From positions 1 through 34,101 of the IMG/VR virus record IMGVR_UViG_3300035701_000156: DNA of 34,101 nucleotides; one strand, given 5' to 3'. The DNA comes from a virus. The translations under genes were made by a program, and so were the position numbers. The notes under the pieces are model-generated. The model made no database searches. It worked only from the letters and a program-made list of their open reading frames with translations, and was not told the DNA's origin. Shown here one piece after another: positions 142 to 21,020 of the stretch. Numbering within the stretch: the first letter of the stretch is position 1; each line of letters opens with the position of its first letter.

Positions 142-1749
142 TTAAATTATTAATTGCCATTTTATCTTACCGGCATCCCAAATTCTATCATATCCAAGTG
201 ACACCATTAATTCAGCTTCTGTATTATTTTTTACATCGATATTAAATTTTTTTGCTATTTTAGTCTTCATATAATTCTGTCGATTTTCACGTAATATATA
301 GTCTTTTGTATACCAATATGCAGCTTTTAATATGGCTACATTTGTAAATCCTGCAGCCTTATATAAATTACCAGTGGAATGTCTATTATCTGAAAATGAT
401 ATAATTCTTCCATGGTAGTTTAGTTTACGAATAATATATGTTAACAATTTACTAAATAATCCCGGATAACTTGCAGAAGTGTCTGTTGCAAATCGTGTTA
501 TTTCTAAATAAGAAGTTCGAGTCAACCACGATATTACCCCAACTAATTTATTATCATAAAATGCACCCACAGATTCGTTTCGTGCCTTACTTGATCCTTG
601 AATATGGTATGTTTCAAGAAAGGTTGATTCTTCATTATATGAAATTGGAAGTATTATTATTTTTCTTGCGCCTATGACGTTAACGGGAGCATGAATTATA
701 TATCTAATTTTTGCTTTTATTAAATCAATTGATTGTATTAGTTCATCTTCGAAATACTGAAATAGATTAATTCCACGCTCTTTACACATCTTCCATTTTA
801 AAAAATGGTAATCTGGTCCCTTTCCCATTGATTCACTATGCCAATAATTACCATTTAATTCTATAGCTACATTAAAGTCTGGTAAATAAAAATCTAATTC
901 ATATGGTGGAATGATCTTTTTTGAATTACATATCACCTGAACATTTAATTTCTTTAAATATTCTGATATAATTAATTCCCATTTACTATATGTTGAATCA
1001 ATTAATAATTTTTTACAATCATAAATTTCTGTATATTTATTAATTGTATTAGGATCAACATGTAATTCACCTGCCGCATATTGAATTGTTTTCCCGGTTA
1101 TAAATTTAATGAATGTTTCTTTATTAAGTAATATTTGTAACTGTTCTTTTGTTTTATTAATATATGAAGAATTTTTAACCCCATATTTTTTTTGTACTGT
1201 TTTTATATATTTTGCACGATTATTAAAATTTGTATTACTGTGATTTTTTAATTTTGTTGATTTTAATTTTTCTTGAAATACTGCGAGTTTAATAGGATAT
1301 TCAGTGCCATATTTAATCAGACAGGTTTGTCTGGCTTTATTTCGAATTATAGATGACCAAGATGCCTGTTCTACTCCAAATTTTTTGAAATTAGTGGTCT
1401 TTGTTTTTTTAATATATTCAGTTGTTTGTGCATAACTCGGAACTCCGTATCTAAATATATTGGTCAATTTTGATTTATTAGGTGCATCATTAAAATGACA
1501 TTTGCATTTATTTCGTTTACCGCAATATGCGAATCCTTTATTAAACCATGTAAATTTTTTTGTATTACAATTTTCACATATAGGTGTTACATTATTTAAA
1601 TAACAATATACTGCTGCTGCAATTGTTATATTAAACTGATCCATTATGGGAGTTATAATTTTCATTATAGATGTATTATTTTTTATTTTAATAGCCCAAG
1701 ATTTTGGATTAGGTGTCTTGGCAATAATTGCAAGAATAGTATCACGCAT
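142..1749 (-). CDS. Free-standing Vsr-like homing endonuclease with C-terminal GNAT-like domain
   Basis: 535 residues. A Cys cluster near residues 58-84 (CENC, then CGKRNKCKC) could bind zinc. Several short repeats of the type KYGVxxxS follow at about 99-195, as seen in phage HEN-like proteins. A Vsr/EDxHD-type nuclease core lies at about 284-304, with Asp in ELDFYLPD and Glu in AIELNGNYWH. The C-terminal third (about 360-480) looks like an acetyltransferase (GNAT) fold with the segment SFSDNRHSTGNLYKAAGF. The same nuclease-plus-GNAT order occurs in the plus-strand endonuclease at 15686-17227. The gene sits between gp32 and uvsX with no intein or intron boundary, so it is a stand-alone insertion. 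No clear ribosome site precedes its ATG; a 13-bp hairpin ends 7 nt upstream and could mask the start. Homing activity is inferred. Confidence 0.75.
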   Translation of the reverse strand: MRDTILAIIAKTPNPKSWAIKIKNNTSIMKIITPIMDQFNITIAAAVYCYLNNVTPICENCNTKKFTWFNKGFAYCGKRNKCKCHFNDAPNKSKLTNIFRYGVPSYAQTTEYIKKTKTTNFKKFGVEQASWSSIIRNKARQTCLIKYGTEYPIKLAVFQEKLKSTKLKNHSNTNFNNRAKYIKTVQKKYGVKNSSYINKTKEQLQILLNKETFIKFITGKTIQYAAGELHVDPNTINKYTEIYDCKKLLIDSTYSKWELIISEYLKKLNVQVICNSKKIIPPYELDFYLPDFNVAIELNGNYWHSESMGKGPDYHFLKWKMCKERGINLFQYFEDELIQSIDLIKAKIRYIIHAPVNVIGARKIIILPISYNEESTFLETYHIQGSSKARNESVGAFYDNKLVGVISWLTRTSYLEITRFATDTSASYPGLFSKLLTYIIRKLNYHGRIISFSDNRHSTGNLYKAAGFTNVAILKAAYWYTKDYILRENRQNYMKTKIAKKFNIDVKNNTEAELMVSLGYDRIWDAGKIKWQLII

Positions 1750-2869: not shown

Positions 2870-5488
2870 CTATTTTTTTATGCCAGAAAGCTTCAAAATA
2901 TCCTGAAAGGTTTTATCTTCGTTCCAACCACTTGATCCAGTTGCGGATGTATCTTGATCATATTTTAAGTCGGCTTTTTTTCTTTCTTTCTTATTTGCCG
3001 AATTTTTACTTACTAATTGATCAACTGATCCTGTTGCAGTTGTGGCCTTATCGTACTTTTCATTATCTTTTTTCTTATCGTCTATGCCTTCTTTCTTTGC
3101 ACCTTTGTTCACCGTGGCGTTTCCGTAATGAAATTTTTCAGTTTTGTCGCGCTCTCTCTGTTTTTGATCTTGCTGGCGATTATATTCTTGTCGTTTTTTT
3201 TCAACTTCTTTCTTATGGCTAGATACTTCGTTTGTACCTTCTTTCTTCGCACCAATTTTGGCTGCTGCGGCGGCTTTTTCTTTTTGTTTCCAGTTCTTAA
3301 TGTAATCTTTTTTACCTACTATCGTTTTATCAAATTCTGCTTTTTGTTTACGTTTTCCGGTAGAACCCTTAACTGGATCCCATGGTTGTTTCTTTGAATG
3401 GTTGGATCCTTCTCCCATACTCTCTTTTGCACGTCTTGCCCTATCTTTGTGCAATTCATATTTCCCTTTATGGTGTCTAGCCAAAACATGATCACCAGTT
3501 GCTACAGCATCACAATAAGATTTATGTGCTGAACGTGCCATTTCTTCATCAGTAGCATTCATTGGATCTATAGGGGATTCATCCATTTCTTCAGATGGCT
3601 CAGATTTTGCACGTTTAGATTTTTCTTTGTGCATTTCGTATTTTTCTTTGTAATGTCTTGCCATAACATGATTACCGTTTGCTATAGCGGCACAATACGC
3701 TTTATGCGCCATTCTTGCTAATTCAGCATCAGATGCGTTTGATTCGTCCATGTCTGGAACAGTTTCAACATCACCGTCTTCATCTGGTTGTAAACGTCCG
3801 TATTGATCAGGGTCATCTTGATCGTGATCAACGTTATCTTCAGGCCCCCGAGGAGCATGAATCTCATTTTGTTTTTCTTTTAACGAATGCACTAATCTTT
3901 CTGCAAGATCCCCGGCCCAATCACCTAACTCTTTTCTGACTTTAGTGACAACACCAGTCTCGCCTAACGGAAATGTGTTATCTTCTTTATTATAGTGACT
4001 TTTCACTAGCTCAGCAATATCAAGTAACGTAGGTTTTTCAACTAATTGTTCGTCGTTTTCACCACCTTCTTCATCTTCGGGTTTCTTATCTCCTACTACA
4101 GGTTCTTCTGATCCTGGTTCTTCTGATCCTGGTTCTTTAAATCCTAATTGTTTTGCTGCATCCGGATCTTTTTTGTTTAACCAGGCAAAAATCGTTGGTT
4201 TAGGATCTGCAGTCGGATCAATTTTAGATAGTTGTTCCAATGCTGAGTCTAAGTCTGAATCTGTAATACCTATTCCTTGGAGTGCTTCTACCGCACTCAC
4301 TCCGTCAACACCTAATGTCAAGTCATTATCTATTAACTGTTTTAAACTTTGGAGAATATCGTCTGGTATCTTTCCTTCAATAACAGATTCGACCCATTCC
4401 TCAAATGGCTTAACTGTTTCAATTCCCTCATTATTACATTCACATGGATCTTCGTTACAGGCTTCACATTTTTCTTTACTATTCTCACCTATATGATTAT
4501 CTAAATCTATTTCACCCGTTTCTTGCATAATAGAATGTATCAATGGAAAGAATTGAGTTAGGTCTTCTTGGAACGTACTTACTGTAAATTTATTTTTATA
4601 ATCTTCCATCGTTGCTTGATCAAGTACAACGCTATCTCCACTTGTTATATGAGCCATACTTTCTTTCCAAGTTTCATAATGACGTTGTTTGCTTAGGTTT
4701 GAAACATGTTGACGTAAGTTTTCTAACTTAGTTGAGGCCCGACCTAGCATTTCGCTGGCTTCTGCCTGCATCGTATCTCGATGTTTTCCTGCATGTCGTT
4801 GCAATGCTCGTAGTTGAGCAATATCTTCACTCATCTTAATAATAGCTTTACCACAATCATCATATGGACGCCCACCATTGGCAACGTGTCGCTGCATTGC
4901 CTTAGCACCAGCGATATGGATGAAAGGATATTTGTAACGTTCACCTTCTGAATTTTCAACATATAGAGCTTCAATATTTCTCGAACGCGCACCTCTTATT
5001 TCCTCATCAACTGACTTATTGTGGCGGATTATAAGACGTGTTTTTTCTAGAGGAAGGTAGCTACTCTTAGTGCTACCAAACATTTTATTTTCTGACATAT
5101 TCTCTTCCTTAGTCCCTACCGAAGCAAGGTATTGAAAATCTTCTTTATTTAAATTTGATTTGGTAATATCGCGGGTATCAAATCTTAATAATCTACGTTT
5201 TGCAAAGTTTCGCATTTCTCTTAAAAAATCATACCATATTTTCTGTGTAAATGGGTCGGAACTTTCTAAGATACTTTGGCCATAAAACACTTTTAATGCA
5301 CCACGTTCGTTAATAGATATACTAACACGACCTAGATTGTTCCCTTCGATAGTAAAATTAAAGTCAAAAAATCTGGCATTTTGGGGATCAGACGTTGTAT
5401 TACCATCCTCATCGCCCATTTCTAATTTAGAAAAACGGCTTCGAATTTTATCGAAAAGATCTTGTGAAATGAGGTCTATAGCGTTCAT
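2870..5488 (-). CDS. Large phage protein of unknown function with tandem 60-residue repeats (probable virion-associated)
   Basis: 872 residues. The N-terminal ~300 residues look folded (FFDFNFTIEGNNLGRVSIS, YDFLREMRNFAKRRLL) and resemble an unnamed protein family of marine T4-like phages. A Cys cluster CEACNEDPCEC lies at 341-351. An acidic linker with PGSEE repeats follows at about 450-480. Two homologous copies of a 45-residue unit occur at 584-628 and 644-688 (AHKAYCAAIANGNHVMARHY versus AHKSYCDAVATGDHVLARHH). The last 170 residues are Lys-rich and end FQDILKLSGIKK. The motif DHDQDDP is echoed as HDQDDP in the protein encoded at 10102-11784. A perfect TATAAATA box ends 4 nt before the ATG. 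The gene directly follows the last terminase fragment. Function unknown; a role in the head or packaged contents is only suggested by context. Confidence 0.7.
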   Translation of the reverse strand: MNAIDLISQDLFDKIRSRFSKLEMGDEDGNTTSDPQNARFFDFNFTIEGNNLGRVSISINERGALKVFYGQSILESSDPFTQKIWYDFLREMRNFAKRRLLRFDTRDITKSNLNKEDFQYLASVGTKEENMSENKMFGSTKSSYLPLEKTRLIIRHNKSVDEEIRGARSRNIEALYVENSEGERYKYPFIHIAGAKAMQRHVANGGRPYDDCGKAIIKMSEDIAQLRALQRHAGKHRDTMQAEASEMLGRASTKLENLRQHVSNLSKQRHYETWKESMAHITSGDSVVLDQATMEDYKNKFTVSTFQEDLTQFFPLIHSIMQETGEIDLDNHIGENSKEKCEACNEDPCECNNEGIETVKPFEEWVESVIEGKIPDDILQSLKQLIDNDLTLGVDGVSAVEALQGIGITDSDLDSALEQLSKIDPTADPKPTIFAWLNKKDPDAAKQLGFKEPGSEEPGSEEPVVGDKKPEDEEGGENDEQLVEKPTLLDIAELVKSHYNKEDNTFPLGETGVVTKVRKELGDWAGDLAERLVHSLKEKQNEIHAPRGPEDNVDHDQDDPDQYGRLQPDEDGDVETVPDMDESNASDAELARMAHKAYCAAIANGNHVMARHYKEKYEMHKEKSKRAKSEPSEEMDESPIDPMNATDEEMARSAHKSYCDAVATGDHVLARHHKGKYELHKDRARRAKESMGEGSNHSKKQPWDPVKGSTGKRKQKAEFDKTIVGKKDYIKNWKQKEKAAAAAKIGAKKEGTNEVSSHKKEVEKKRQEYNRQQDQKQRERDKTEKFHYGNATVNKGAKKEGIDDKKKDNEKYDKATTATGSVDQLVSKNSANKKERKKADLKYDQDTSATGSSGWNEDKTFQDILKLSGIKK
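3425..3739 (-). repeat. Tandem 180-nt repeat inside the 872-residue gene
   Basis: Two diverged copies (3739-3605 and 3559-3425) encode about 45 matching residues each, with a 60-residue period. Each contains the pattern N-A-[ST]-D-x-E-x-A-R-x-A-H-K-x-Y-C and ends in a Lys/Arg-rich helix. This is an internal duplication of a small helical module. Confidence 0.75.
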
Positions 5489-5492
5489 CCTG

Positions 5493-5500
5493 TATTTATA
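5493..5500 (-). promoter_or_regulatory. Late promoter TATAAATA, 4 nt before the ATG at 5488
   Basis: An exact match to the T4 late box on the minus strand, followed by CAGG and then ATG. With T4 spacing the transcript would begin at or next to the start codon, giving a leaderless or nearly leaderless mRNA. Confidence 0.65.
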
Positions 5501-5508
5501 TCAGTTTA

Positions 5509-6906
5509 TTAAAATGTACTCACATAGATCGGTAGAGGTAGATCATATTCTTCTAACCCAGTATGATCTCGCATTTTTTCATAAATCATAGGATCCCATT
5601 CTTGCAGTAACATAATCATACGTACCGCTAATAATAAGCTAGATACAAGATCGTCATATTGCCCTGTCTTTGCTTCAAATGTTATACCATTTGCAACGAA
5701 ACTTTTTAATTCACTTACTAGAGGCTTGCTGTTAATTGTAATTTGACGGCTTTCAACTAGTTGTTTTAATTTAGCACAGGTTGCTATTTTTGCAGGATGA
5801 GTGGTATTAAACCCCTTTCTAAACCTGCGAGCATGTCCTTTCTTTATAGGTTCTGATAGAAATAATCCGGGGAAAGATTCTTCACCTAATTCATTTATTG
5901 CAACAATTGCAGATTCTCCTAAGGTATTATTTTCTACGCTATAATAAATGCTACTGGTTACCCCTATATCTTTACATTTACCATCGACATATTTGACTAA
6001 TTCTCTAAGTATTCTTGCCTGAGATTGAACAGGGGTTGTATTATGGCGCCATTCACCGACCTGAATTAATGTAGGTAATTCTATAATTTCTATTGCCGCG
6101 TAATCACCACCAGTTCCTAAACTAGGATCTAAACTAAAAATATATGTACATGCTGGATTAATTGATTTATACCAACGTGCTTGACCCATTTTCATAATAG
6201 GTTCTATACCATCTAAGTTTGATAAACTGATACTGTTTATTAATGTTTCATCAAAGACTAAGAATTTACAGCAATGTTCTCGCTCAAATCTTTCAACTCC
6301 TACCCTGCTTCGTTCAGCTTGCGCCCATGCTTCATCTCGATCTGGATGTTCACTCCAAATTGCTTTAAATGGTGCGAATCCATTGCGGCCTACCTCAGTT
6401 TGATTTCCATATTCATCAAATAGTTTATTTGCTTCATTCCATATCTGTGCAAACTGATCTTCATCACTGTTCGGTGTAGATGTAATAATTGCTTTACCAC
6501 CTGTTGCTAATGTTGGACTAATTGAGGTCCAAAATTCTACAGCAATATTTGGCTCAACATAAGCAAATTCATCACAATTTTTTGTTATAAAACAATTATT
6601 TACAATAAATCTATGTAACTTGTCACTAACCTCGATCATATCATAGACAGTTGTTGGTTTTAATTTTTCTATAGAAATTATTTGTATAGATCCGTTTACG
6701 GTATCTATATACTCCCCAACTTTCAGATCCTTTAATTGTATTTTTACGTTTTGTTGAAAAAAATAATGGCCGGATGTTGCTTCAACAATCTCATTATTTG
6801 ATAAGGTTAATTTATAGGTTATTTTATCAGTAGTGCGGGTAATACCTTTAAAATCCTGCCAGCCCGATGGCGTTAAGATTTCATATTCAATGTTTTCAGC
6901 AAACAT
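5509..6906 (-). CDS. 17: Terminase large subunit, fragment 3: split-intein-2 C-piece fused to Walker B/nuclease extein
   Basis: 465 residues. Residues 1-110 are the C-terminal piece of intein 2: it opens MFAENIEYEILTPSGW, carries a block-B-like TSGH and a block F DMIEVSDKLHRFIVNN, and ends CFITKN before +1 Cys. The penultimate residue is Lys where inteins usually have His. Residues 111-465 are terminase: Walker B acidic pair in CDEFAY, motif III ITSTPN, then the RNase-H-like nuclease with Asp in SLDPSLGTGGDY (260), Glu in SVENN (325) and Asp in GQYDDLVSS (418-419). The product should be joined by trans-splicing to fragment 2. Translation starts inside the endonuclease gene (34-nt overlap), with AAGGGA as ribosome site. 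The C-piece start resembles the known AceL-TerL intein. Confidence 0.9.
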   Translation of the reverse strand: MFAENIEYEILTPSGWQDFKGITRTTDKITYKLTLSNNEIVEATSGHYFFQQNVKIQLKDLKVGEYIDTVNGSIQIISIEKLKPTTVYDMIEVSDKLHRFIVNNCFITKNCDEFAYVEPNIAVEFWTSISPTLATGGKAIITSTPNSDEDQFAQIWNEANKLFDEYGNQTEVGRNGFAPFKAIWSEHPDRDEAWAQAERSRVGVERFEREHCCKFLVFDETLINSISLSNLDGIEPIMKMGQARWYKSINPACTYIFSLDPSLGTGGDYAAIEIIELPTLIQVGEWRHNTTPVQSQARILRELVKYVDGKCKDIGVTSSIYYSVENNTLGESAIVAINELGEESFPGLFLSEPIKKGHARRFRKGFNTTHPAKIATCAKLKQLVESRQITINSKPLVSELKSFVANGITFEAKTGQYDDLVSSLLLAVRMIMLLQEWDPMIYEKMRDHTGLEEYDLPLPIYVSTF

Positions 6907-7808
6907 AATATTTCCCTTACGTCAGTATCTCTTGAAGATTCCCATATATAATATGTGATTATTCCTCGTAATTTATATAATGCTTTTGCTTTCATATAAT
7001 CATATTCTAAAACTTCTTGTGCTGTTTTTCTTTTGCCGCACGGCGGATTCCAACTGTTCCATTGTTCTTCTGATAAAGTAGGATCGGCATGCCATGCATG
7101 GGATTGATATTCAATTGTGATCTTATGATCTGGTATAGTTAGGTCATAAAAGAAACAATTTCCAGAATCTGTATCTTTTATACTATATTCTGATTGATCA
7201 AAATAATATTTTATATTATGTTCTTCTAAAAAATCTAAAATTGATTTTAATATCTTTTTTGATATCTTACTGGCCCCAACCACTCGAGAAATTCCTTGAG
7301 AGAGTAATTTTTCTTTTTGTTTCTTATGAGCATTTTGTTCAACAGTCAATCCATTAGGTAATACTGTTGTTAATCTTCCTATCACTTGTCGTTGATATCC
7401 ATTTCTACCAAATGCATCAATATTTTTCATGTGTGTGTCACGAGTTTTTTGACCTTTGCGTTTATATCCAGAAATACCATCTTTATCAACTGATTTTAAT
7501 ATTCGTCGAGCCTTTACCTGTCCGAGTTCATACTTAGTTAATCCAGTTTTTAAATCTATTCTATGTAAACCTTTTCTAATATTTTCCGTATGAGCTCGGC
7601 ACCTTCTTTGAGTAGCAGGATATTTTTGGTCATATTCATCCAACGACATTTCTAATACTTTAGTAATGTAATCAGAACGAATAATTAGCATTCTTTGTTT
7701 GCTAACGGGGCAGATTACATAATCTTCACCCTCAATTAATCCAGTTTGGTAAAGTTTTAAATTACGAATTTGATTACGTTTAATAAATTGTTCAATTTTT
7801 GTTTTCAT
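6873..7808 (-). CDS. Vsr-like homing endonuclease inside fractured intein 2
   Basis: 311 residues, in a different reading frame from the intein pieces. The N-terminal two thirds are basic and without a recognised domain, containing a GISGYKRKGQK / RNGYQRQVIGR pair that may be a DNA-binding repeat. The C-terminal part (about 200-300) has the nuclease core: Asp in FFYDLTIPD, Glu in ITIEYQSHAWHADP, then a helix with EYDYMKAKAL and the strand ITYYIWES. The expected role is to cut intein-less terminase genes and spread the element. It differs clearly in sequence from the endonuclease in intein 1. No strong ribosome site precedes the ATG; instead an exact TATAAATA box ends 5 nt upstream, which suggests leaderless late expression. 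Confidence 0.8.
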   Translation of the reverse strand: MKTKIEQFIKRNQIRNLKLYQTGLIEGEDYVICPVSKQRMLIIRSDYITKVLEMSLDEYDQKYPATQRRCRAHTENIRKGLHRIDLKTGLTKYELGQVKARRILKSVDKDGISGYKRKGQKTRDTHMKNIDAFGRNGYQRQVIGRLTTVLPNGLTVEQNAHKKQKEKLLSQGISRVVGASKISKKILKSILDFLEEHNIKYYFDQSEYSIKDTDSGNCFFYDLTIPDHKITIEYQSHAWHADPTLSEEQWNSWNPPCGKRKTAQEVLEYDYMKAKALYKLRGIITYYIWESSRDTDVREILCLLKTLNMKS

Positions 7809-7813
7809 GTAAT

Positions 7814-7821
7814 TATTTATA
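7814..7821 (-). promoter_or_regulatory. Late promoter TATAAATA, 5 nt before the endonuclease ATG at 7808
   Basis: An exact T4 late box on the minus strand, located between the stop of terminase fragment 2 (7836) and the endonuclease start. The spacing TATAAATA-ATTAC-ATG puts the predicted +1 on the A of ATG. Control elements arriving with the endonuclease have been described for fractured-gene loci. Confidence 0.7.
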
Positions 7822-7835
7822 CGAAGGCAAATTCA

Positions 7836-8582
7836 TCACTCGATAATTTGATTTGGATTGTACAATCTCTGATATAGATTTCGTAATGTAATTTCCTCCT
7901 CAATTAATGTTTTTTTATTTCGTATTTTTACAGTAGTTTCTCCATTCAAACAATATAATAAAGAAACAGACATACCACGACCTGTTGTCTCTGTAGTTGT
8001 TTGTGCAACTATACGACTACCGTTATCAAATTCGATACTCTGTTTATTATAGCTTGTAACTCCACAACGAATATGATCCGGGCATAATTCATATGCGTAT
8101 CGCAATCTCAACATAATTTCTTGAGCACCAGTATACTTGTGTGCTGCGATTAAAATCGTACTGTTATCAACAAACATCGCATACCATAAGAGATAACCTA
8201 CTGCGGTAGTAGTATTATGGCTTAATATATCATTTGAATAAAATCTATGATCTAAGGAATCAACCCCAACATCAAACATTTTTTCGCATTGTCCAGATGC
8301 TATTACTGACACAACTGGTTGAGGACCATTAATTGTCTGCACTTTATGAGCAGTAGTGAGATCTTTGACAAATATTTCATTCATATTTTCATCAAAAACT
8401 ATATGATCATCAGCACATTTTAAAATTAATCCGTTTATTAATGTTAAAGTATAAACTTCATATTCGATTGTTTGTTTTATATCATCGAGAGGTTCCCAAC
8501 CCGAATCAGTTTTAATATTCCATTCGTCGAGATCAATTACATCTTCAAATTTTCTGATTACTTGATTAGAAAGTTGATACAT
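7836..8582 (-). CDS. 17: Terminase large subunit, fragment 2: intein-1 C-piece + middle extein + intein-2 N-piece
   Basis: 248 residues in three parts. Residues 1-123 are the C-piece of intein 1, with a block-B-like CADDH (Ala where Thr is usual), block F MFDVGVDSLDHRFYSND and a canonical end ILSHN before +1 Thr. Residues 124-210 are terminase ATPase from TTTAVGYLLWYAMF (Walker A after the Lys) through AAHKYTGAQEIM to GRGMSVSLLY (the hydrophobic strand of Walker B). Residues 211-248 are the N-piece of intein 2, starting CLNGETTVKI and ending at the stop. This fragment must splice at both ends. It starts inside the end of the first endonuclease gene (25-nt overlap), with only a weak ribosome site (AAGAAG). 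Confidence 0.9.
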   Translation of the reverse strand: MYQLSNQVIRKFEDVIDLDEWNIKTDSGWEPLDDIKQTIEYEVYTLTLINGLILKCADDHIVFDENMNEIFVKDLTTAHKVQTINGPQPVVSVIASGQCEKMFDVGVDSLDHRFYSNDILSHNTTTAVGYLLWYAMFVDNSTILIAAHKYTGAQEIMLRLRYAYELCPDHIRCGVTSYNKQSIEFDNGSRIVAQTTTETTGRGMSVSLLYCLNGETTVKIRNKKTLIEEEITLRNLYQRLYNPNQIIE

Positions 8583-9758
8583 TTATCTATGACTTCTTGT
8601 TTGTTTTGTTTATATTCTTGTTCTGCGATATGTAACACTTGAAACCCTGCATGTTTAATTGCAATATCTCGTGCCTGTTCACGCTGAGGATTTGCTTTTG
8701 CTGAACCATGCCAATAATTACCATCGAATTCTATTATTTTTTTTAAACAAACATCAATAAAATCTGGTAAAATAAATGATTTTTCTAATTTTAATCTATA
8801 TTCTTTATTTTTATATTTTTTCATATTCTCACGTTCATATGTAGCAAAGTATATATTTTCTTTATCATTTAATTTTTGTATTAAAGAATTAAATAATTCT
8901 TGAGATATTTTTGAAAAATTTTGTTTTTTGAATGATTTTATCCATTTTTCAGTTTTTGCTAGGTGGCGGCGTGTACCATCCTCTTCTCCATACTTATTAA
9001 TAAAATATTTGAGATCTCGAGTCTGAGAGTGGGATTGCAATTTTTTAGCTTCTTCAATATTACCATTTGTTTGTAACATCCAATATTCAATAGTATTGAT
9101 ATATTTTTCTGGGTGATCTTTTCTTGATTGTCTTATATTCTTTACATGTTGTTCATTCCATTCTTTATTATATCCATGAATAAATTTTTTACTAAACTTT
9201 GAAAATTTTCCGTTATGTTGATATCCTGGATTATTGTTTCCCTGATTCATTTTTTTAATTTTATCACATGTAATTTCTGGTAATTGTAATTTTATTTTCA
9301 TATCTTTTGACGAAATGAATCCGTGCATTTTAGCATGTTGTTGAGTAATTTGTTTAACATGAGAAGTACAAAGAGGGCATTTAATATAATCAATATTTTC
9401 AATTCCTGTATTTTTGTTTTTTAACATCAGATCACTCCAGCATTTCACGCTACAATATTTTGCTCTTTTATTTCCTATAAAAGGTAAATTACAATTTATA
9501 CAAACTAATTGCCGTAAATTACTTTGTGTTCTGAATATCATTCGACATTTGATTGAACAAGTTTTAGCCACATTTGATTTGGTAAGAAAAATTTTATTGC
9601 ATAACTTACAATGTTTTTCTTTCGTATTGTGAGATGTCTGGTAATGTATGTCCGTCTCTTTTTGCTTTTTCATATTCGTATAATTTTCCAACTGGGATAT
9701 CATATATTTTTCCTGTATATTTGTTCATTATGCATATATTTATACTTTTCTCAAAACA
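8214..9758 (-). mobile_element. Fractured intein 1 element: split intein plus free-standing endonuclease, inserted in Walker A
   Basis: The element spans the first intein Cys codon (9758-9756) to the terminal Asn codon (8216-8214), 1545 bp. It holds a 50-residue N-piece ending at TAA 9608-9606, an out-of-frame endonuclease (9703-8558) and a 123-residue C-piece (8582-8214). Removal restores GRQLGK + TTTAVG, the terminase Walker A motif, corresponding to SRQLGKTT in T4 gp17. Confidence 0.9.
8558..9703 (-). CDS. Vsr-like homing endonuclease with zinc-finger N-terminus, inside fractured intein 1
   Basis: 381 residues. The N-terminus has several Cys pairs (CKLCNKIF, CSIKC, CINCNLPF, CSVKC, CPLC followed by HAKMH), consistent with zinc-binding DNA-recognition modules. 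The nuclease core is near the C-terminus: Asp in SFILPDFIDV, Glu and His in KIIEFDGNYWHGSA, then a terminal helix/strand FQVLHIAEQEY. The start at 9703 is favoured because AGGAAA lies 8 nt upstream, whereas the next Met (9673) has no such site. The first 98 nt therefore overlap the intein N-piece in another frame, and the last 25 nt overlap fragment 2. The likely job is homing of the intein element into empty terminase genes. Confidence 0.82.
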   Translation of the reverse strand: MISQLENYTNMKKQKETDIHYQTSHNTKEKHCKLCNKIFLTKSNVAKTCSIKCRMIFRTQSNLRQLVCINCNLPFIGNKRAKYCSVKCWSDLMLKNKNTGIENIDYIKCPLCTSHVKQITQQHAKMHGFISSKDMKIKLQLPEITCDKIKKMNQGNNNPGYQHNGKFSKFSKKFIHGYNKEWNEQHVKNIRQSRKDHPEKYINTIEYWMLQTNGNIEEAKKLQSHSQTRDLKYFINKYGEEDGTRRHLAKTEKWIKSFKKQNFSKISQELFNSLIQKLNDKENIYFATYERENMKKYKNKEYRLKLEKSFILPDFIDVCLKKIIEFDGNYWHGSAKANPQREQARDIAIKHAGFQVLHIAEQEYKQNKQEVIDKCINFLIK

Positions 9759-10022
9759 TTTCCCTAATTGCCTCCCTAATAAATTCGCACTGAATCTATT
9801 TTTATGATAATTTTCTAGTAATTTTTGTTGATAATCATATGCGTGATATCGTAATTTACCTCTTAATGGATGTTGAATATAGAAGAAATTTTCTAAAAAA
9901 TAATCTGGGCCAGTATCAAGATCCTGACATTTCAGTAAATCTTGAATATCATTTTCTGTCCAACGTTGAATAGTATGTGGACGTTTTATCAACACCCCAT
10001 CAAAGTAATTTTTTGAAGCCAT
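9606..10022 (-). CDS. 17: Terminase large subunit, fragment 1: N-terminal extein fused to intein-1 N-piece
   Basis: 138 residues. Residues 1-88 are the N-terminal terminase region, ending YDYQQKLLENYHKNRFSAN and then LLGRQLGK, the first part of Walker A. Residues 89-138 begin with the nucleophile Cys (CFEKSINICIMNKYTGK) and form the intein N-piece, ending at TAA. The ATPase P-loop Lys is thus the last extein residue. Alone this polypeptide cannot bind ATP; it should be joined to fragment 2 by trans-splicing. Terminase packages DNA into the prohead by ATP-driven translocation and cuts the concatemer. A terminator followed by a late-type box (TGTAAATA, 4 nt before ATG) stands in front, so the gene starts its own transcription unit. 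Confidence 0.9.
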   Translation of the reverse strand: MASKNYFDGVLIKRPHTIQRWTENDIQDLLKCQDLDTGPDYFLENFFYIQHPLRGKLRYHAYDYQQKLLENYHKNRFSANLLGRQLGKCFEKSINICIMNKYTGKIYDIPVGKLYEYEKAKRDGHTLPDISQYERKTL

Positions 10023-10026
10023 ATTG

Positions 10027-10034
10027 TATTTACA
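10027..10034 (-). promoter_or_regulatory. Late-type promoter TGTAAATA, 4 nt before the terminase ATG
   Basis: One mismatch to TATAAATA on the minus strand, followed by CAAT and ATG. It lies directly after a strong terminator, a layout expected for a new transcription unit. No ribosome site fits between box and ATG, again pointing to a leaderless mRNA. Confidence 0.5.
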
Positions 10035-10037
10035 AAT

Positions 10038-10061
10038 AAAATAGCCCCGGAGGGCTATTTT
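10038..10061 (-). terminator. Rho-independent terminator (10-bp stem)
   Basis: AAAATAGCCC and GGGCTATTTT form a perfect 10-bp stem with loop CGGA. In the minus direction the stem is followed by U-rich sequence, so it ends transcription of the 560-residue gene upstream of the terminase. The A/T flanks make it usable in both directions. Confidence 0.85.
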
Positions 10062-10101
10062 TGTCTTTATAAGTTACCGACACGCGGTAGTTTGTTTAAC
10101 T

Positions 10102-11784
10102 TCAGGCACCTTCTTCTCTTTTTAAATTTTTCCACATTGCAGCGGCCGCAACTGCTTTGCCTTTTTCTTTGCTACCATATTTCTTTGCCGCTTTAGAAGC
10201 CACCTTATCAAAGTTGCCTTTTCCGATATCTTTACCAGACTTTGCTTTCTTAACCACTGAAGATTTTTCTTTTTTAGATAATCCAGCACTTGGTTTCCCT
10301 TCACGTACGTCGGCTTTCGAAAAGAATTTTTCATGTGCTTTTCCATATCCTGCTTTACGTTTTAATTCTATACCTTGATGTGCTTTGGCTGTACCATAAT
10401 CTCCGCTATTACGTGCTACTCGTGCCGCTGTACCATGCCTATTATAATCTTTAAACGCGGCATCGGCGTAATTACCTAATGTTCCTTTGCTTAATTCGTT
10501 CGTTTGTACTTCGTCAGAAGAGTGAGTTTCTGAAGTTACCAATCCGATTACTTTTGCTTCATTATCTAAAGAATGTAATCTCTGCATTACTCTGATCTTT
10601 GTACCTTTATCTAAACCTGGACTACGTAATATGTCTTGCAATGCTTTCCTGCGAGCCATGTAATCTTCTTTATCAGCTATCTGAGTGTCTAATTCTAAAA
10701 GTATTTTAGAAAATACTTTATCAGTTGCTTCTTTTATTTTTTTTTCCTTAGATGTTTCAGTAAATTTTTTATAATCTGTAAATAATATTGATTCTGTAGT
10801 ATCTATAACTTCATGAACTGGATTAACGGCTCTTACTGGCAATTCACCAAATGAGTTATTAATATCCCCTAACTGTTTTACAGGATCTTGTTTTATTCTT
10901 TCATGTGGACTATTATCAAAAGATCGATTCATTGAATCTTCATCCATCTCTGGTTCATCAGTTGAGACATCAATCATATCACGCATTGGTGGCATCATAT
11001 TTCCATCATTGTGTTCTCCTCCTGGTTCTTTTTCTATTGCAGCAACAGCAACTGGTTCTTCTGGCTCCATTTGTCCAGCCGGTTCTATTGGCATGTGTTC
11101 TGGTCCAACTTGGTGTACCCCTGCTAAACTCATAATATCTTTTAACATACCTGATATTTCTTGTCCACTGGTTGCAGTAATACTAATATCTTCGTTTGTT
11201 TTTTCTTTGGTTAGTCCACACTCTTCTATCGTTTTTCTAACTCCTGATAGATAACGCAAGCTTTCTAAGGACAATGTCTCATACGTGTTTTCTTTTTTCA
11301 TGTCTATTCCTTCCATTGGCGCTGGATCATCTTGATCATGCGGATCTTGTGAATTATGTTGATTGCTGGCAGCGATCATTTGTTTTAATACAGAGTCAAA
11401 TCCCTTAATTGCCTGGTCATGAAACATAGCGACTTTATAAGATTTATACTTTTGAACCATTTCCTTAGCTTCTTGTCTAAGTTTTTTTATTACTGATATT
11501 AGTTTTCTCGGATCATCACCCGCTACTGCTTTGGCAATATCTCTATATGTTCGACCACCATAGTTACCTGTTCTAAAAATTGAATCATAATAAGGGTGGT
11601 CGATTCCGAATGCTTCATCAACTGCGGTGTCTTGTGTATCACCGTTAACATTTGAAAGTGGACTCATCGAAGAACCGCTAGTTGCCGGCATCATATTTCC
11701 CAACTCTTCTGATACTGGTTTACTTATATCTGTATTTTTAGAATCTAATTCAGCCAGTCGAGTTATAACATCACCCATATTCAT
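10102..11784 (-). CDS. Acidic phage protein of unknown function with basic C-terminus (probable virion protein)
   Basis: 560 residues, low complexity in places. The N-terminus MNMGDVITRLAELD has a Leu-x-Glu that could be a prohead-protease site. Residues ~50-135 contain a globular-looking helical segment (YDSIFRTGNYGGRTYRDIAK, then KLRQEAKEMVQKYKSYK). Two short motifs, LRYLSGVR (176-183) and IMSLAGV (217-223), resemble the ILKLSGI at the end of the 872-residue protein. A long acidic Pro/Met-rich linker follows. The last 60 residues are Lys-rich with FDKVASKAAKKYGSKEKG, a tail type often seen in T4-like marine phage proteins. The start at 11784 has an AGGAAA ribosome site. It lies first after the gp16/gp4 block and ends at a terminator. 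Function not recognised. Confidence 0.65.
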   Translation of the reverse strand: MNMGDVITRLAELDSKNTDISKPVSEELGNMMPATSGSSMSPLSNVNGDTQDTAVDEAFGIDHPYYDSIFRTGNYGGRTYRDIAKAVAGDDPRKLISVIKKLRQEAKEMVQKYKSYKVAMFHDQAIKGFDSVLKQMIAASNQHNSQDPHDQDDPAPMEGIDMKKENTYETLSLESLRYLSGVRKTIEECGLTKEKTNEDISITATSGQEISGMLKDIMSLAGVHQVGPEHMPIEPAGQMEPEEPVAVAAIEKEPGGEHNDGNMMPPMRDMIDVSTDEPEMDEDSMNRSFDNSPHERIKQDPVKQLGDINNSFGELPVRAVNPVHEVIDTTESILFTDYKKFTETSKEKKIKEATDKVFSKILLELDTQIADKEDYMARRKALQDILRSPGLDKGTKIRVMQRLHSLDNEAKVIGLVTSETHSSDEVQTNELSKGTLGNYADAAFKDYNRHGTAARVARNSGDYGTAKAHQGIELKRKAGYGKAHEKFFSKADVREGKPSAGLSKKEKSSVVKKAKSGKDIGKGNFDKVASKAAKKYGSKEKGKAVAAAAMWKNLKREEGA

Positions 11785-15685: not shown

Positions 15686-17227
15686 ATGTCAATTTCTTGT
15701 AAAATTTGTGATATCGAATTTGAAAAAATTATCCCATGGCAACATTTAAAATTACATAATATATCTACTTCTGATTATAAAAAACAATATAATTGTTCTG
15801 TATATAGTCAAAATACATTAGATAAATTTAAATCAAGAATTCCCCACAATAAAGGAAAAAAAATTACCGATGTTAATCAATTATTAAAAATTAAAGAGGC
15901 TATTAATAAAAGGGAACACCGTTATCAACAAGGAGAATTTAATAGAGGTTCTACAAAAACGATAGAACAAAAAGAAGTATTGAGTAAAAGAACAAAAGAA
16001 TATGCTAATAGACATAAAGAAGAGATGATTGAGAGAGCGCATAAAGCTGTAGAAACAAAAATTAAGAACGGATATGATTTTGGTAAGAATATGAGAGGTA
16101 AAACGCATTCTCAGGAAACTAAAGAAAAAATTAAAAATAAATCAATTAATATAATTCAGGAAAAAACAATACGCTTCTATAAAAACATTTTAGAAAAATT
16201 ATTAGAATTAGACTTATCGCTAATTGGACCTATCACGGAGACTCAGCTAAACTTAGAATGTAATAAATGTCATACTAAATTTTCATTTACCAAACAATAT
16301 TTTACACCATCAAAATTTAAAACATCTATGTGTCCTATTTGTTTTCCTAGAACAATAGCTCGAAGTAGGGGGGAATTAGAATTATTTAATTTTATAAAAT
16401 CTTTATCTCCAGATGCTATTTCTGGTTACAGAGAAAAATATCATTCAAAAGAAATTGATATTTTTATTCCTTCATTGAATATAGGAATAGAATTTAATGG
16501 ATTATATTGGCATTCAGAGCCTGCATTATTAGCAAATAACAGATCTCCAAAATCAGACTTCATTAAACAACAGACATTTATTGATCAAGGAGTTCGTATG
16601 ATTATTATATTTGAAGACGAGTGGAGTAATCATAAAGAAATCGTTAAGAGTAGAATTTCTAATATTTTGAAAAGAACAACAAATTCAATTTATGCCAGAA
16701 AATGTCAAGTAAAAGAAGTATCAAGTATAGATTCCGCAGCATTTTGTAATATTAATCATATTATGGGTAAAGGTCGAAGTAATTTTAGAATAGGATTATT
16801 TTATGATGATAAATTAGTGTCATTGATGACTTTTACTAAAAATAATTTATCAAGAAAGTCAAAAGATACATGGGAAATTAATAGGTTCGCATCTTTATTG
16901 AATACCAATGTAGTTGGGGCAGCAAGTAAGTTATTCAAATTCTTTTTGAAAAATATTGATCCTGTTAAAGTAATATCTTATGCGGATAATCGTTGGTCGA
17001 CTGGAGAATTATATAAACATTTGGAATTTAAAAAAATTAATAACGGAACTCCAAATTATTGGTATATTCAATCTAATATATTACAAAGAATACATAGATT
17101 TACATTAAGAAAAACAAAAAAAGATGATCGTAATTTAACAGAATTTCAAATCCGAACCAATCAAGGATATACTCGAATTTGGGATTGTGGTAGTTCTAAA
17201 TGGCTCTGGAGTAAAGCAGGTATATAA
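15686..17227 (+). CDS. Free-standing Vsr-like homing endonuclease with NUMOD-like and GNAT-like domains
   Basis: 513 residues. It opens with a zinc-finger-like CKICDIEF...HLKLHN. A basic helical region with GKTHSQETKEKIKNKS (NUMOD3-like) is at about 140. A zinc ribbon CNKCHTKF...CPIC is at about 190-220. The Vsr-type core follows at about 255-280 (EIDIFIPSLNIGIEFNGLYW then HSE). The C-terminal GNAT-like part (IGLFYDDKLVSLMTF, SYADNRWSTGELYKHLEF) matches that of the endonuclease at 142-1749. It has its own promoter box, an AAGGAA ribosome site and a terminator that contains its stop codon. It is inserted opposite to its neighbours between tail sheath and tail tube, and nothing suggests an intron or intein. 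Confidence 0.8.
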   Translation: MSISCKICDIEFEKIIPWQHLKLHNISTSDYKKQYNCSVYSQNTLDKFKSRIPHNKGKKITDVNQLLKIKEAINKREHRYQQGEFNRGSTKTIEQKEVLSKRTKEYANRHKEEMIERAHKAVETKIKNGYDFGKNMRGKTHSQETKEKIKNKSINIIQEKTIRFYKNILEKLLELDLSLIGPITETQLNLECNKCHTKFSFTKQYFTPSKFKTSMCPICFPRTIARSRGELELFNFIKSLSPDAISGYREKYHSKEIDIFIPSLNIGIEFNGLYWHSEPALLANNRSPKSDFIKQQTFIDQGVRMIIIFEDEWSNHKEIVKSRISNILKRTTNSIYARKCQVKEVSSIDSAAFCNINHIMGKGRSNFRIGLFYDDKLVSLMTFTKNNLSRKSKDTWEINRFASLLNTNVVGAASKLFKFFLKNIDPVKVISYADNRWSTGELYKHLEFKKINNGTPNYWYIQSNILQRIHRFTLRKTKKDDRNLTEFQIRTNQGYTRIWDCGSSKWLWSKAGI

Positions 17228-20669: not shown

Positions 20670-21020
20670 ATGAGGGGGCTATGTAAGACTTGTAATAAAA
20701 GACCGATAGCTATAAACTATCGCAAGAATGGAAAAATCTATTATAGAACACAGTGTGATCACTGTGCGAGATCAGCTAAGGAAGGAACCCCGCTTTGGTT
20801 TAAAGCAGGGTATAAAAAACAAACTAAATGTGATCGTTGCGGATATTCAAGCAAATATTCTCAACAATTTGATGTTTACCATATAGACGGGAATCTACAA
20901 AATTGTAGATATGGTAATCTTAAGACTATTTGTGCTAACTGTCAGCGGGTAATTTATCTACTACATTTACCATGGCGGCAGGGAGATTTAGTCCCCGACA
21001 CGCCCTCATTTAATATGTAG
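20670..21020 (+). CDS. Small HNH-endonuclease-like zinc protein
   Basis: 116 residues. Two N-terminal Cys pairs (CKTC and CDHC) form a zinc site, and a second set CDRCGY...CANCQ frames an HNH-like core FDVYHIDGNLQNCRYGNLKT. Such small proteins are frequent as free-standing genes in T4-like phages and are annotated as HNH endonucleases or homing enzymes. The gene is on the opposite strand from its neighbours and its end overlaps the dNMP kinase end by 11 nt. No strong ribosome site is visible. Whether it cuts DNA is not known; the first His of HNH appears to be the one in YHIDG. Confidence 0.65.
   Translation: MRGLCKTCNKRPIAINYRKNGKIYYRTQCDHCARSAKEGTPLWFKAGYKKQTKCDRCGYSSKYSQQFDVYHIDGNLQNCRYGNLKTICANCQRVIYLLHLPWRQGDLVPDTPSFNM

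Follow-up and report, generated by a model that had tools for sequence, protein, structure and literature searches.

Two successive breaks with different split inteins in a phage large terminase gene, and the recurrence of multiply broken terminases

In the viral contig IMGVR_UViG_3300035701_000156 of IMG/VR, the large terminase gene terL (T4 gp17 type, 530 residues) is encoded as three separate polypeptides of 88, 87 and 355 residues, whose two junctions are flanked by the halves of two different split inteins. As far as sequence can tell, two trans-splicing reactions would rebuild one terminase from these three polypeptides, a reading to which we assign a probability of about 0.86. The contig was analysed at its whole length of 34,101 bases and is called the window below. 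It is a fragment of a phage genome, and since relatives were found on contigs of up to 353 kb, the phage is likely to be a large one.

Results

Three terminase pieces and their junctions

The locus consists of five open reading frames (ORFs) in one tight cluster on the minus strand. Their extents, including stops, are 10022-9606 for terminase piece A with the N-terminal half of the site-1 intein (IntN1), 9703-8558 for a putative homing endonuclease (EN1), 8582-7836 for the C-terminal half of the site-1 intein followed by piece B and the N-terminal half of the site-2 intein (IntC1, B, IntN2), 7808-6873 for a second putative homing endonuclease (EN2) and 6906-5509 for the C-terminal half of the site-2 intein with piece C (IntC2, C). 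The EN1 ORF shares sequence with the 3' end of the first gene and the 5' end of the third, and the EN2 ORF with the 5' end of the fifth. Piece A, the N-terminal extein (88 residues; 9759-10022, minus), ends in the P-loop with GRQLGK, matches the terminase families PHROG 5989/36964 (E 8e-11) and aligns with contiguous relatives. Piece B (87 residues, TTTAVG to SLLY; 7953-8213, minus) matches PHROG 5989 (E 3e-31). Piece C (355 residues; 5509-6576 with stop, minus, residues at 6576-5512) carries Walker B, motif C and the nuclease domain, and matches PHROG 36964 (E 2e-77) and the gp17 structure 3ezk (E 5e-19); T4 gp17 in the PDB is matched by piece B as well. When the exteins are joined, the motifs of a T4 gp17-type large terminase follow in order: P-loop GRQLGKTT at residue 83, Walker B LLYCDE at 173, motif C STP at 208 and the nuclease aspartates in SLDPS at 323 and YDD at 482.

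Both breaks thus have the make-up of a fractured gene, with intein halves on different polypeptides and an endonuclease gene between them. The original prediction, made from the letters alone, had proposed terminase pieces of 88, 87 and 355 residues, and all three are present at these coordinates, going by ORFs and by PHROG and gp17 homology. The intein halves that it saw on either side of each junction are borne out by coordinates and by profile and structure matches of the IntC pieces. It had further placed an out-of-frame 'Vsr-like' endonuclease in each break; the out-of-frame endonucleases are there, while the family name fits only in part, EN1 matching DUF559/MTES_1575 profiles and EN2 weakly matching PHROG homing endonucleases.

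Break 1 lies in the P-loop (GRQLGK|TTT) and break 2 at Walker B (LLY|CDE). When the joined terminase was used to search IMG/VR, 460 relatives were found, the best 80 of which are 68-80% identical to the joined exteins and align across both breaks; each of the full-length relatives examined (82/82) has terL in a single uninterrupted frame. The predicted ligation products, NLLGRQLGK|TTTAVGYL at site 1 and GMSVSLLY|CDEFAYVEP at site 2, are carried by uninterrupted relatives either exactly or with one or two substitutions. Compared with the commonest junction sequences among these relatives (NMLGRQMGKTTTAVGYL at site 1 and GMSVSLLYCDEFAYVEP at site 2), the products of the window show only two conservative changes, both at site 1. 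This agreement is not due to chance, and it is what scarless ligation would require.

Two different inteins, each with its own endonuclease

At site 1, IntN1 (50 residues; 9606-9758 with stop, minus, residues at 9758-9609) starts with Cys1 (CFEK...), is 53% identical over a 47-residue match to the sequence at the same place in L082 (L-numbers label the loci that were compared with the window) and is collinear with the contiguous site-1 intein of L102. Its counterpart IntC1 (123 residues; 8214-8582, minus) contains the block B histidine in ADDH and ends with LSHN before Thr+1, and its homologue profile matches PDB inteins with E 3e-11. An AlphaFold model of the middle polypeptide (predicted local distance difference test, pLDDT, 76) shows the Hint fold of inteins, closest to VidaL (Z 12.9, root-mean-square deviation 2.9, 112 aligned), next to a stretch of the gp17 ATPase. 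At site 2, IntN2 (38 residues, CLNGETTVKIRNKKTLIEEE...; 7836-7952 with stop, minus, residues at 7952-7839) likewise starts with Cys1 (CLNG...) and is 61-71% identical to the IntN2 of L110 and L121, with the motif conserved. IntC2 (110 residues; 6577-6906, minus) has block B as TSGH and ends with ITKN before Cys+1 (TKN|C); it is 55-60% identical to the IntC2 of L110 and L121 and related to CatC, a consensus atypical intein (6dsl; profile E 2e-9). A scan of viral contigs with the IntC2 sequence alone found nothing, and profile A3 was needed to reach homologues. Solved inteins matched by the IntC1 and IntC2 homologue profiles include gp41-1, VidaL and CatC. Both inteins are split atypically, before block B, into a short IntN (50 and 38 residues) and a long IntC (123 and 110 residues), and by these lengths, by sequence homology and by split position they are of the AceL/GOS-TerL type.

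Within the window, IntN1 and IntN2 are only 21% identical, and IntC1 and IntC2 34%, whereas inteins at the same site in other phages are 42-71% identical to those of the window; these are therefore two elements rather than the outcome of a recent duplication. From these between-site identities of 21-34% we infer that the two inteins are orthogonal. The endonucleases differ in a similar manner. EN1 (381 residues; 8558-9703, minus), which overlaps the IntN1 and IntC1 ORFs, is a putative homing endonuclease of PD-(D/E)XK-like type (Pfam DUF559, E 6e-6, and also MTES_1575), with relatives in the site-1 break of 13 other loci (E down to 3e-83) and one at site 3. EN2 (311 residues; 6873-7808, minus) shares 54-57% identity with its positional counterparts in L121, L183 and L181, and its relatives occupy the site-2 break of nine other loci, with three site-3 endonucleases in the wider cluster. 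Against PDB sequences both gave chance-level matches only. The endonuclease families thus track their site, as homing predicts.

That each IntN belongs with its IntC follows from the existence of fused versions. The site-1 intein stands in one frame in L102 and L103, and the fused site-2 intein of L195 is 95% and 97% identical to the halves that are parted by an endonuclease gene in L174. The AlphaFold model of this L195 intein is poor (pLDDT 55), and its Foldseek matches to inteins lend weak support.

Recurrence of broken terminases

Further loci were fetched with the IntC1 and IntC2 profiles and classified by profile search of all frames. Three break sites are in use in terL, i.e. the P-loop (site 1), Walker B (site 2) and a position near residue 279 (site 3), and about eleven lineages are broken at two of the three: at sites 1 and 2 in the window, L144 and the Salicola phage SCTP-2, at sites 1 and 3 in L112-L114, L116/L117, L123, L159/L160 and L213, and at sites 2 and 3 in L182, L191 and L198-L200. 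Four lineages (L110/L111, L121/L180, L147 and L083/L084) are broken at all three sites and encode the terminase as four polypeptides. At site 3 of L121/L180 and of L083/L084 and at site 2 of L182, the halves share one frame with a single stop codon between them; these three breaks are less secure because one base decides between split and fused, a weakness from which L110/L111 and L147 are free. None of the three breaks in L110/L111 holds an endonuclease (0/3), so breaks can outlive it. Between L110 and L112, whose DNA is about 90% identical, the site-2 intein and the site-3 endonuclease vary in presence. The breaks recur in pairs of near-identical contigs that come from different assemblies (L083/L084, L110/L111, L121/L180, L116/L117).

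The original prediction had suggested looking in metagenomes for terminases with both sites filled or empty, and both kinds exist. It had also presented the double fracture as an arrangement not known to have been described. We too found no published one in the open-access literature, but the arrangement is not confined to the window, as it recurs in many phages with up to four pieces.

In a tree of terminases, unbroken terL genes surround the window, the nearest being L002, and both breaks are therefore recent gains on its branch, acquired singly or together. This tree was made by a quick method, its branches are long and its sampling of empty sites is biased; it was used for nesting and recurrence, not for counting changes. 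Between lineages the IntC1-B-IntN2 piece is 61-67% identical (61-64% among the window, L111 and L121), and its synonymous sites have reached or come close to saturation. For the comparisons that allowed an estimate, the ratio of nonsynonymous to synonymous substitution rates (dN/dS) of the pieces was about 0.10-0.25, most synonymous distances being saturated. These values speak for constraint on the pieces rather than for the age of the arrangement, because the pairs compared may have inherited their inteins or acquired them separately.

Broken terminases in isolated phages

The complete 440 kb genome of SCTP-2 (MF360958) holds terL only as three genes, which differ in strand and lie up to 211 kb apart: gp534 (A-IntN1) at 429 kb on the minus strand, gp267 (IntC1-B-IntN2) at 256 kb on the plus strand and gp224 (IntC2-C, which also carries a further intein in fused form) at 216-218 kb on the minus strand. 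All three are annotated 'terminase large subunit'. A search of this complete genome for an intact terL found none, and we found no published discussion of its split terL. In laboratory-grown Campylobacter phages such as F341 (L096/L101), a break at site 2 divides terL between two genes that lie far apart (1489-2817 and 108149-108865 in F341). Thus, isolated phages live on a split terminase alone. A site-2 IntC-like start on the C-terminal terL part occurs in 38 Campylobacter phage records. Vibrio phage VP-1 (L210, 1308-4650) has a fused site-1 intein together with a site-3 break whose IntN half forms one in-frame fusion with a GIY-YIG-like endonuclease, and in Agrobacterium phage Atu_ph07 (L177, 4489-6680) a split at site 1 leaves terL as two neighbouring genes with no endonuclease.

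Related elements and neighbouring genes

In many contigs a gp46/SbcC-like ATPase also has a site-1-type IntC half at its P-loop (LSHN|TT or LSHN|ST; L118, L127, L143 and L156, ~3837-10295 in each), and such halves occur in a helicase-like gene of L087/L089 too, so that one intein family breaks several P-loop proteins. Directly upstream of fractured terL, some loci carry a terminase paralogue with the ATPase domain only, i.e. without the nuclease domain (L144, 6037-6666; L192, 301-1125; also L193, L190 and L137). Elsewhere in the window there are free-standing homing-endonuclease-like genes (phrog_3339/559) at 142-1749 (minus) and 15686-17227 (plus) and an HNH gene at 20670-21020 (plus), which with EN1 and EN2 makes five endonuclease genes in 34 kb.

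Discussion

Proposed assembly and its alternatives

The following scheme would account for the locus; its splicing, pairing and homing steps are deduced from the sequences. A T4-type terL would have been invaded by two different inteins, one in the codons of the P-loop and one in those of Walker B. With each intein would have come a homing endonuclease specific for that site, encoded by a gene of its own that lies between the intein halves. The locus would then yield three polypeptides, A-IntN1, IntC1-B-IntN2 and IntC2-C. IntN1 and IntC1 would associate, as would IntN2 and IntC2, and the Hint domain formed by each pair would excise itself, linking A to B at Thr+1 and B to C at Cys+1. The outcome would be a normal 530-residue terminase, with an ATPase active site that exists only after both ligations. 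The three-part assembly by two trans-splicing reactions which the original prediction proposed agrees with extein continuity, the intein halves, the site-specific endonucleases, the conservation of the pieces and SCTP-2.

Several observations weigh against this scheme. The middle chain, in its order IntC-extein-IntN, has the layout of split-intein circular ligation of peptides and proteins (SICLOPPS), and pairing of IntC1 with IntN2 in cis could circularize piece B; its AlphaFold model, folded without partners, gives one permuted match to a SICLOPPS intein (Z 9.0), which may have been forced by the absent partner. Because such cross-pairing would give a dead-end ring, orthogonality should be kept by selection. 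IntC2 ends in Lys-Asn instead of His-Asn, which can slow C-terminal cleavage. A penultimate histidine is usual in inteins without being essential, and ITKN looks like a functional variant because it is kept in six lineages (window, L110, L121, L181, L182 and L183), with an SHQ ending in six others. Finally, another terL could lie elsewhere in a genome of which the window is a 34 kb fragment, and a search of IMG/VR with an exact 33-mer spanning the A/IntN1 junction returned no other contig, though near copies of the window may be absent from the set searched.

Instead of being ligated, the polypeptides might associate non-covalently into a working terminase, with the intein halves as relics, just as the gene-in-pieces ribonucleotide reductase of an Aeromonas phage is said, in a passage citing Friedrich 2007, to function non-covalently despite a homing-endonuclease break (PMC10448857). 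The missing penultimate histidine of IntC2 would fit such a state. Yet Cys1, the block B histidine, the terminal Asn (or Gln) and the +1 nucleophile are kept at both sites, in other loci too, and 50 extra residues on the P-loop lysine at site 1 would disturb ATP binding unless removed, which makes non-covalent association improbable. Hardly any likelier, and if anything slightly less so, is a dead or decaying terL in a phage that uses another terminase, its own or that of a co-infecting phage. The partial genome leaves room for one, but the ORFs are all intact, catalytic motifs are present, dN/dS among relatives is low wherever estimable (0.25 or less), and SCTP-2 does without any other terL.

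Assembly or sequencing errors are a much fainter prospect again: the single contig and its unmatched 33-mer would allow for them, but each break holds an intact endonuclease ORF of about 0.8-1 kb with homologues at the same place in other contigs, and like breaks are seen again where different assemblies yielded near-identical contigs, as well as in the isolate SCTP-2. Least probable of all is removal of the breaks from RNA as group I or II introns. Phage introns, too, can house homing endonucleases, but the window has no Rfam match at the gathering threshold, and translation of the flanking sequence, in frame with the exteins, gives conserved intein halves. Endonuclease homology, the Rfam result and the intact ORFs and motifs led us to reject artefact, RNA introns and decay.

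Beyond the window, it is probable that many phage terminases are natural multi-part proteins, assembled from three or four polypeptides by two or three split inteins that have separate origins and do not cross-pair, with breaks that outlive their endonucleases and, in SCTP-2, with pieces scattered over the genome. If so, an essential motor ATPase, cut in its P-loop and at Walker B, needs two protein-ligation reactions before DNA can be packed, and nature has evolved ordered multi-fragment trans-splicing under selection for orthogonality. The stages of gene breaking can be seen side by side: the site may be empty, hold a fused intein, or be split with or without an endonuclease, and the genes may be scattered.

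Comparison with known systems

Fractured genes, as Dassa et al. reportedly described them in 2009, consist of a conserved phage enzyme gene, a split intein and a free-standing endonuclease between the halves, and are not known with more than one fracture per gene. A Vsr-related endonuclease reportedly occurs in half of the described fractured loci. A split intein and a free-standing endonuclease are found here too, but the window has two fractures in one gene, and its relatives up to three. Our search of the open-access literature found no natural gene with two fractures; papers under other licences lay outside its scope, and priority is thus uncertain. Within these bounds, recurring multiply fractured terminases of up to four pieces appear to be undescribed.

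In mycobacteriophages, inteins cluster in the ATPase motifs of terminases (PMC5050341). The atypically split inteins AceL-TerL, GOS-TerL and Cat, with an IntN of 25-37 residues and an IntC of about 104 (PMC11766414), share with our loci the TerL host, the short IntN and the long IntC, and IntC2 is a sequence relative of CatC. In contrast to these single split inteins, the window adds a second and different one (IntC1, with VidaL as nearest fold), and its IntC2 ends in Lys-Asn. SCTP-2, one of whose inteins has been compared with the split DNA polymerase intein of phage MIJ3 (PMC6892783), resembles the window in that sites 1 and 2 are both broken, terL is spread over three genes and the intein halves are homologous; it differs in that its genes are scattered over 211 kb on both strands and include a third, contiguous intein. 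Engineered orthogonal split-intein pairs can ligate three or more polypeptides in order (PMC7090010). There, as proposed here, several pairs act together, but the engineered sets are built from unrelated inteins, which protein engineers now assemble by screening, whereas the terminase is a natural and essential enzyme. If our reading is correct, natural selection has provided in these loci sets of two or three split inteins that have to function together within a single cell.
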